Shown in pieces: positions 3,456 to 33,576 of a stretch of DNA of 40,711 nucleotides. This DNA comes from Chloroflexota bacterium (GTDB lineage: Bacteria > Chloroflexota > Dehalococcoidia > Lucifugimonadales > Lucifugimonadaceae). The position numbers and the translations under genes are program-made. The stretch lies in the NCBI GenBank assembly GCA_022564545.1, contig JADFLG010000011.1, forward strand, positions 1 through 40,711. The letters are read 5' to 3'. Within the stretch, counting starts at the first letter, position 1. The number at the start of each line of letters is the position of its first letter. The notes under the pieces were generated by a model. The model had not been told where the DNA came from and made no database searches. It saw nothing but the letters and a program-made list of their open reading frames with translations.

Positions 3456-4409
3456 GTGGATCTGAATACCCTCGAAAGCTTATTGTCACGAACAAGGCAA
3501 AAAGCGAAGGAACACTCAGTTGTATTTGAAAAGAGTGAGGCGGCAACCCGTTACAGTCTCATCGATCCCGTTCTGGATGCACTGGGTTGGGATCTTGCCG
3601 ACCCTCTGCACTCCATTGCCGAGTATGGTGTCGGAAAAAACCGCGCCGATTACGCGATGTTTGGCAAAAGTACGGCAATACCAGCGTTGTTCATCGAAGC
3701 GAAGCGACTCGGCACAAACCTCAGACAAAATCTCGATCAGGCAATCACCTATTGCAACGGCGAAGGAGTCAAATACTTCGTCATAACCGATGGTATCAAT
3801 TGGCAGGCTTATGACGTTTTCAAACCCGTCCCAAATTCAGATAAAAAGATTTTTGAGATTGATCTGAATGTCACTGGTGATAGCGAATCGGTAATTCAGT
3901 TTATTTGGTTGTGGAGACAAAACTTCACTTCTGATTCAGAGCCAATAAAAGCCAAATTACATGCTCGAAAAGCTACTACTCCAGAACAAGGTCAAGTCGT
4001 GGACCCTGGTCGAGGCATTTCGTTGTCAGCAGTCTTCGAAATGACCAAGGCTCACAAATTCCTTAAACCTCCAGAACTAGTGTTGACGCCGGACGGTGCC
4101 ACACATTCGATTATCACTTGGACGGAGATGCAAATCACCGTCGCTGAGTGGCTGGTCGAAAACAAATTTTTGACTCCGGCGATGTGCCCGGTCCGATCTA
4201 AAGGAGGTGGGCACATACTTCACACCAAACCCGTCGCAAAAAACGGGAAGACTTTCTGGAGCCCGCATGAAATCGGCGGGATGTGGATCGAAAAATCGAG
4301 AGACGCGAAAGACCACGCACGAATCTCACTTGAATTGGCGACCGCCGCTGGCTCCCAAGACATCAATATCGTTGGCCCAAATACCTGGCCGCTTCCGAAA
4401 AGCAAGTAA
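3456..4409 (+). CDS. HsdR_N-type (type I/IV restriction) endonuclease-like protein
   Basis: 317 residues from the GTG at 3456. AGGAG at 3443-3447 is 8 nt upstream, whereas the alternative GTG at 3450 is only 2 nt from it. Residues about 15-125 look like the type I restriction R-subunit N-terminal nuclease domain. The PD-(D/E)xK pattern is D65 in KNRADYAMFG and E81-A-K83 in LFIEAKRLG. Unlike HsdR there is no helicase. The C-terminal part (about 165-317) has a W/G-rich segment (GGMWIEKSR) that I do not recognise. Base composition is clearly more AT-rich than the neighbours, and the gene sits between direct repeats, both suggesting transfer. It probably cuts or restricts DNA, perhaps with the methyltransferase downstream. 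Confidence 0.75.
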   Translation: MDLNTLESLLSRTRQKAKEHSVVFEKSEAATRYSLIDPVLDALGWDLADPLHSIAEYGVGKNRADYAMFGKSTAIPALFIEAKRLGTNLRQNLDQAITYCNGEGVKYFVITDGINWQAYDVFKPVPNSDKKIFEIDLNVTGDSESVIQFIWLWRQNFTSDSEPIKAKLHARKATTPEQGQVVDPGRGISLSAVFEMTKAHKFLKPPELVLTPDGATHSIITWTEMQITVAEWLVENKFLTPAMCPVRSKGGGHILHTKPVAKNGKTFWSPHEIGGMWIEKSRDAKDHARISLELATAAGSQDINIVGPNTWPLPKSK

Positions 4410-32774: not shown

Positions 32775-32892
32775 CTAGCGCAATGTCTCCAGATGGGTTG
32801 CGATTAGCAATCGGCCATGATGCCAGACTCTGCTGCGATTTGTGCAAAATTCAGATAGATCTTGGCTACGCTATTGATTTCGGAGGTGCGCT

Positions 32893-33576
32893 GTGGCCGA
32901 CGAACAGACCCTTGGCAGGGTGTATCACGCGATAATGTCGGGGTTCGTCGAGAACGGACGGGCACCGCACTATACCGAATTGGCCGTCGCGTTCGGAGTA
33001 ACAGCCGAGGCGGCGTTTGAACTTCAACGAGGCATGCTCGACGAATTTGGGGGGCCTCATTGGGCTGACCCTGGAAGTGGTCTGATCGCGTGTTTTGATC
33101 CCTTTTCCAACATCCCCACGCAGTACCGTATTTCGATCGACGGTGAACAAAAATGGTACGGCGAATGAGGTCTCGCTTCGCTGGCCGTGAGCTGGCTATT
33201 TCCAGGACAGGAGATACACATCGACGCAACTTGCCTCGATTGTCTTGAGCCGATATTCGTCCGCATGCGAGACGGCGAGGTTCTAGAAGCTGACCCGACG
33301 ACGATTGTTGGGCATCAGAACATTTCCTCTTCACAGGAAGGTGTCACATGGCCCGATAGGTGAAGCCAGATGAATCTCTTCCGGTCGGAAGAACACGCAA
33401 AAGCTTGGTCGAAGTACTCTCCAGACTCGACCGAGCGGACGATGCCAGTGGCGAAATACGCAAGGCATTTCGGTACCGATTACCAGCGTCTGAGGCTCGA
33501 TCCGGACTACTTCGTCAATCGAATGGAATTACAGAAAAAAAGAGACGCCCAGCGCGCAGCCATCGAGAACGATTAG
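32893..33576 (+). CDS. MerB-like protein with two in-frame TGA codons, putative double selenoprotein
   Basis: A single frame from GTG 32893 (GGAGG 6 nt upstream) to TAG 33574-33576 gives 227 residues if TGA at 33166 (codon 92) and 33361 (codon 157) are read through. Before codon 92: a winged-helix-like N-domain (APHYTELAVAFGVTAEAAFE), then CFDPFSNIPTQYRISIDG and WYGE. Organomercurial-lyase relatives have WYGNCAWD there, so TGA replaces the catalytic Cys (C96 in plasmid MerB). After codon 157 comes SQMNLFRSEEHAKAW, where relatives have Cys-S-T-I-N-F-F-R-S-E-E-H; this TGA replaces C159. The two are 65 codons apart, against 63 in MerB. No other stop interrupts 227 codons. A CLDC pair (about 111-114) lies between. 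The MerB Asp99 position is Ala. Reading as selenocysteine is inferred; the alternative is a pseudogene. Confidence 0.8.
33169..33198 (+). promoter_or_regulatory. SECIS-like hairpin after first TGA
   Basis: Stem TGGCC (33182-33186) with GGCTA (33194-33198), including one G-U pair, and loop GTGAGCT (33187-33193). The loop begins 18 nt after the TGA at 33166-33168, and its first base is G, fitting the bacterial rule of a G among the first loop bases 16-37 nt after the UGA. The stem is short, so this alone is weak. Confidence 0.4.
33364..33392 (+). promoter_or_regulatory. SECIS-like hairpin after second TGA
   Basis: A perfect 6-bp stem, TCTTCC (33377-33382) with GGAAGA (33387-33392), closes a GGTC loop (33383-33386). 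The loop starts 19 nt after the TGA at 33361-33363. In E. coli fdhF the GGUCU loop starts 18 nt after its UGA, so both distance and loop sequence agree well. Confidence 0.6.

Follow-up and report, generated by a model that had tools for sequence, protein, structure and literature searches.

In the lyase MerB, the organomercurial is held by Cys96 and Cys159, and proton handling falls to Asp99 (PMC4525700, PMC8261052); MerB2-type variants with serine at position 99 bind Cu(II) (PMC8261052). A selenoprotein relative, SaoL (NF040728), has been described as a MerB-like organometallic lyase carrying one selenocysteine (Sec) in a CU motif (PMC13188914; Haft & Gwadz 2023), and a 2026 review of prokaryotic selenoproteins lists SaoL, with its one Sec, as the single MerB-like family (PMC13188914). 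A MerB family with two Sec residues is absent from the reviews, and may have been mentioned earlier in the original SAO papers (PMC9879109, PMC12013261). The initial annotation of the DNA studied here proposed exactly such a protein and knew of no double-Sec relative of the lyase; this agrees with the single-Sec forms given in the reviews, but overlooks that a single-Sec MerB-like protein, SaoL, was already described.

The gene lies on the forward strand of the window, by which we mean the whole 40,711-nucleotide stretch that was analysed. On re-reading 32893–33576, the frame was found to start with GTG and to be open over 32893–33573 save for two TGA codons, at 33166–33168 and 33361–33363, which are its sole stops before the terminal TAG (33574–33576). 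With both TGA read as residues (92 and 157, a spacing of 65 residues), the product is 227 amino acids long. The open 227-codon frame, the spacing and the strong ribosome site of the initial annotation, a GGAGGT five nucleotides before the GTG, were thus all recovered. We read the product as a MerB-fold selenoprotein with Sec92 and Sec157 at the ligand positions, decoded by SelB and with a presumed diselenolate organometal chemistry, and give this explanation as a whole a probability of roughly 0.7. The features of the locus are as follows.

32882–32887, forward strand: ribosome-binding site GGAGGT, 5 nt 5' of the GTG start, read from the sequence.
32893–33576, forward strand: double-Sec MerB-like gene, 227 aa, two in-frame UGA codons, stop TAG (reading frame, Pfam match, homologues).
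33103–33474, forward strand: MerB domain PF03243, residues 71–194 (Pfam match).
33166–33168, forward strand: UGA-1, putative Sec92 at the position of MerB Cys96; the codon is TGA in at least 31 members of the family and encodes Cys in 2.
33180–33196, forward strand: candidate SECIS-1 hairpin, apical-loop GU at 33187–33188.
33232–33243, forward strand: CxxC motif, Cys114/Cys117, with Cys114 aligned to MerB Cys117; CxxC in 33/33 family members.
33361–33363, forward strand: UGA-2, putative Sec157 at the position of MerB Cys159; TGA in every complete family member.
33377–33392, forward strand: candidate SECIS-2 hairpin UCUUCC-GGUC-GGAAGA, apical-loop GU at 33384–33385.

A search of 395 related genomes returned a homologue in 37 of them, and 33 family members, including the window copy and excluding a decayed copy in genome G004, could be read through both sites. 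TGA occupies precisely both columns in 31 of these 33 sequences; these double-TGA homologues are 38–63% identical and are spread over many genera and families. In the two others, L026 and L032, site 1 is TGC (Cys) and only site 2 is TGA. In a separate scan of a contig collection, the only relatives returned were proteobacterial or unassigned.

By sequence match and predicted model, the fold of the window protein is that of MerB. The Pfam MerB family PF03243 matches residues 71–194 with 74.8 bits against a gathering threshold of 27 (E 8e-21), and the gene, with its two internal TGA, is the only MerB match in the genome. Among solved structures, the best match by sequence is MerB2 (5c17, E 1.1e-6), in which both mercury-ligand cysteines align with Sec92 and Sec157, in agreement with the initial placement of the two TGA at MerB Cys96 and Cys159. 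An AlphaFold2 model (pLDDT 69), built from the window protein and seven relatives from the contig collection only, superposes on MerB (3f0o) with Z 18.4 and an rmsd of 2.2 over 127 residues; all non-MerB folds score below Z 8, and the N-terminal residues 1–66 are predicted as a separate winged-helix-like domain. Pfam, the MerB2 alignment and the fold model together support the MerB-type identity first proposed.

The window protein is nevertheless neither a canonical MerB nor SaoL. It shares with MerB (R831b; 3f0o, 1s6l) the fold, both ligand positions and MerB Cys117, but differs in having Sec for Cys96 and Cys159 and Ala for Asp99, at 15% identity; of the MerB signature Cys96/Asp99/Cys159/Cys117 (PMC8261052), it shows U, A, U and C. 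Both NCBIfam MerB models score under their cut-offs (NF009710, 29.3 of 193 bits; NF033555, 25.5 of 200 bits), and on these scores we rejected a canonical MerB identity. MerB2, the closest solved sequence, likewise lacks the aspartate, having Ser at position 99, but its ligands are Cys and it contains no Sec. SaoL resembles the window protein as a MerB-related selenoprotein with a presumed organometal substrate, but has one Sec where the window protein has two; with 37.6 bits against the NF040728 cut-off of 140, SaoL identity was rejected. The family may also differ from SaoL and its SAO operon in its surroundings, as no conserved neighbours were seen over 28 contexts.

A wider survey, in which 400 genomes from the phylum were searched with PF03243, the matches read at residue level and a tree built by a quick method, showed that the phylum holds classical Cys/Cys MerB, a Cys/Sec clade and two double-Sec groups. 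The Cys/Sec clade has the motif WxANCAWD...TUxTMLLFRSEEH, corresponding to Cys96/Sec159 with the canonical Asp99; members with Cys96/Sec159 are L119, L123, L125, L128–L130, L133–L139, L141 and L064, spread over many of the phylum's genomes, and almost every one shares the SECIS-2 hairpin. The second double-Sec clade consists of L143, L147 and L148 (genomes G404, G748 and G299), with the motif YAAUAIDA...FURxSxFFWSEEHA and Asp99 kept (UAIDA or UAVDA); its SECIS stem, UCUUCU-GGUC-AGAAGA, differs by a C-G to U-A change. Like the window protein, both this clade and the Cys/Sec clade (e.g. L129) have Sec at the second site and the same type of SECIS; unlike the window copy, both keep Asp99, and both are separate from its clade. 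In the tree, which should be read with its quick method in mind, the two double-Sec groups stand apart, the window's clade has 99% support, and the losses to Cys at site 1 fall inside that clade. Representatives of the other Sec kinds likewise score below the SaoL and MerB cut-offs.

Several isolated variants were also noticed. L048, from a deltaproteobacterial-type metagenome-assembled genome labelled Proteobacteria, is a Cys/Sec form with TGA at site 2 (3529–3531) and a 7-bp SECIS, and its near-identical twin L049 has TGC (Cys) there; going by the sequences, the pair possibly records a recent Cys/Sec switch. A very divergent double-TGA MerB relative, L068 (G249:C230:8508-8774), has the motif FGIRUAIDYL and preserves SECIS-2 nearly letter for letter. 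In L140 (G357:C14:13676-14041), TGA directly precedes a Cys (GLUCKIYYF) and site 1 is Cys; no GGUC hairpin of the usual kind was seen in this sequence.

The residue at the Asp99 position is Glu in 27, Asp in 5 and Ala in one of the 33 family members, the last being the window copy (Ala95); the initial annotation's alignment to W-Y-G-N-C-A-W-D, which implied the aspartate, fails at this residue. Ala recurs at this position in the decayed copy of G004, and in both copies Sec is preceded by Glu (Glu91 in the window protein) instead of Gln, so that Glu91 may be a moved carboxylate replacing Asp99.

By analogy with MerB, an organometal lyase is our best guess for the function. In the mechanism we propose, each UGA is decoded by SelB and tRNA-Sec through its own downstream hairpin, a step shown by the comparative evidence below; two selenolates would then grip an organometal cation, a nearby carboxylate (in most relatives the Glu or Asp at +3; in the window protein perhaps Glu91) would protonate the carbon, and the freed metal would be handed to cell thiols or selenols. 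Selenium binds mercury more tightly than sulphur does, and methylmercury is for this reason the obvious candidate substrate. The more specific proposal, a diselenol organometal lyase that arose at least twice (in the window's clade and in L143/L147/L148) and whose Asp99 carboxylate was replaced in the window's genus, perhaps by Glu91, seems to us evenly balanced.

The main rival to a lyase is a double-Sec protein that binds or scavenges mercury or copper, or selenium or organometal compounds, on the MerB fold and cleaves no carbon–metal bond. Such a role gains weight above all for the window copy with its Ala95, and would be in keeping with the Cu(II) binding of the 99Ser MerB2-type variants (PMC8261052) and with a weak fold kinship between the model and the copper chaperone NosL (Z 6.1). 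The surroundings of the gene point the same way: mer genes are absent nearby, the 28 contexts contain no mer operon or shared neighbours, and the best MerA-like match in the host genome falls below its curated cut-off, so that a mercury operon context was rejected. Against scavenging, however, the acidic group is generally kept in the family, and Asp is retained both in the Cys/Sec clade and in L143/L147/L148. We regard scavenging without cleavage as unlikely, and organometal cleavage as the better reading. Elsewhere in the host genome, a short stretch resembling the C-terminus of MerA (G000:C45:5776-5964) adjoins a MerA-like oxidoreductase; it is interrupted by a single in-frame TGA and is possibly another selenoprotein.

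Evidence that the two TGA encode Sec comes in part from the RNA. The bacterial SECIS model describes a hairpin 16–37 nt after the UGA with a G in the apical loop (PMC13188914), and both UGA sites conform to it, with hairpins about 17–19 nt downstream. Within SECIS-2, synonymous sites are near-fixed compared with the rest of the same genes: Ser is TCG in 32/33 sequences (0.14 elsewhere), Arg CGG in 25/30 (0.28), Leu CTC in 25/25 (0.22) and Glu GAA in 30/33 (0.44). In SECIS-1, the base pair that closes the GU loop (21–24) is formed by the wobble positions of an Ala codon and a Val codon; it covaries, occurring as C-G in 8, A-U in 6 and G-C in 6 sequences (paired in 20/21). Slid versions of the hairpins pair in 14–66%, against 95–97% for the proposed structures. 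A strict SECIS pattern occurs after these two TGA only, of 1203 TGA on both strands of the window, a result that is supportive and not independent, the pattern having been tightened after inspection of the alignment. The two members with Cys at site 1 differ: in L026 the GU loop is gone there (GTG to ATG), providing a natural control, and in L032 the site-1 hairpin is retained. The folding z-scores of both hairpins as single sequences are unremarkable, and the hairpin evidence is comparative.

At the protein level, dN/dS is about 0.05–0.15 before UGA-1, between the two UGA and after UGA-2 (NG86, close pairs with unsaturated dS), so that all three segments are under protein-level selection. No TAA or TAG was found inside the coding part in any of the 33 family members (0/33), and a frameshift was seen only in the decayed G004 copy. 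In this copy (L071, G004:C10, about 140676-141357), from a sister species of the same genus, the frameshift is accompanied by a TAG and by loss of the SECIS-1 pair 18–28; the gene is decaying in G004 and is hence dispensable in that species. These data bear on whether the window copy could itself be a decaying merB pseudogene whose stops fell on Cys codons by chance. TGC or TGT becomes TGA in one step, and the sister copy shows that decay occurs, but at least 31 members share TGA at both columns without internal TAA or TAG, the sequence downstream of both TGA has low dN/dS and the hairpins covary; as the initial annotation had argued, such a coincidence is most improbable, and we rejected it on the shared TGA columns and low dN/dS.

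The host genome also has the means to insert Sec. The four genes selA, selB, selC and selD, proposed earlier as a check, are all present: a tRNA-Sec (anticodon TCA, 66 bits), SelA (E 1e-124), SelB (318 bits, its gene interrupted by a contig end) and SelD (G000:C77:5104-6033), which is itself a selenoprotein, an in-frame TGA falling within its motif CAGUAGK. Among the 31 genomes with this family, SelB was detected at E ≤1e-84 in 29; the other two are fragmented drafts. Reading UGA as some other amino acid, through general recoding or suppression, has the open frame and no more in its favour and was rejected as negligible, as it was initially, since UGA is a normal stop in the window (8 of 31 genes, picked by hand, end in TGA), both sites have Cys where they lack Sec (as in MerB2 and the proteobacterial relatives), and the SECIS and complete Sec machinery are present. 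With paired SECIS, full Sec machinery and homologues that keep the TGA, the selenocysteine reading of both codons, which the initial annotation had considered the natural explanation, is strongly supported by the genomic data.

The affinity of selenium for mercury lies at the heart of methylmercury toxicology, and to our knowledge no characterised demethylating enzyme has Sec as both ligands. The locus presents a gene of 227 codons in which constraint at the RNA level is visible on two SECIS elements. Standard annotation would truncate these MerB genes at the first UGA, and surveys of merB would therefore miss this group. With Sec/Sec, Cys/Sec and Cys/Cys forms, a single phylum offers a natural series for the contribution of Sec to organometal cleavage.
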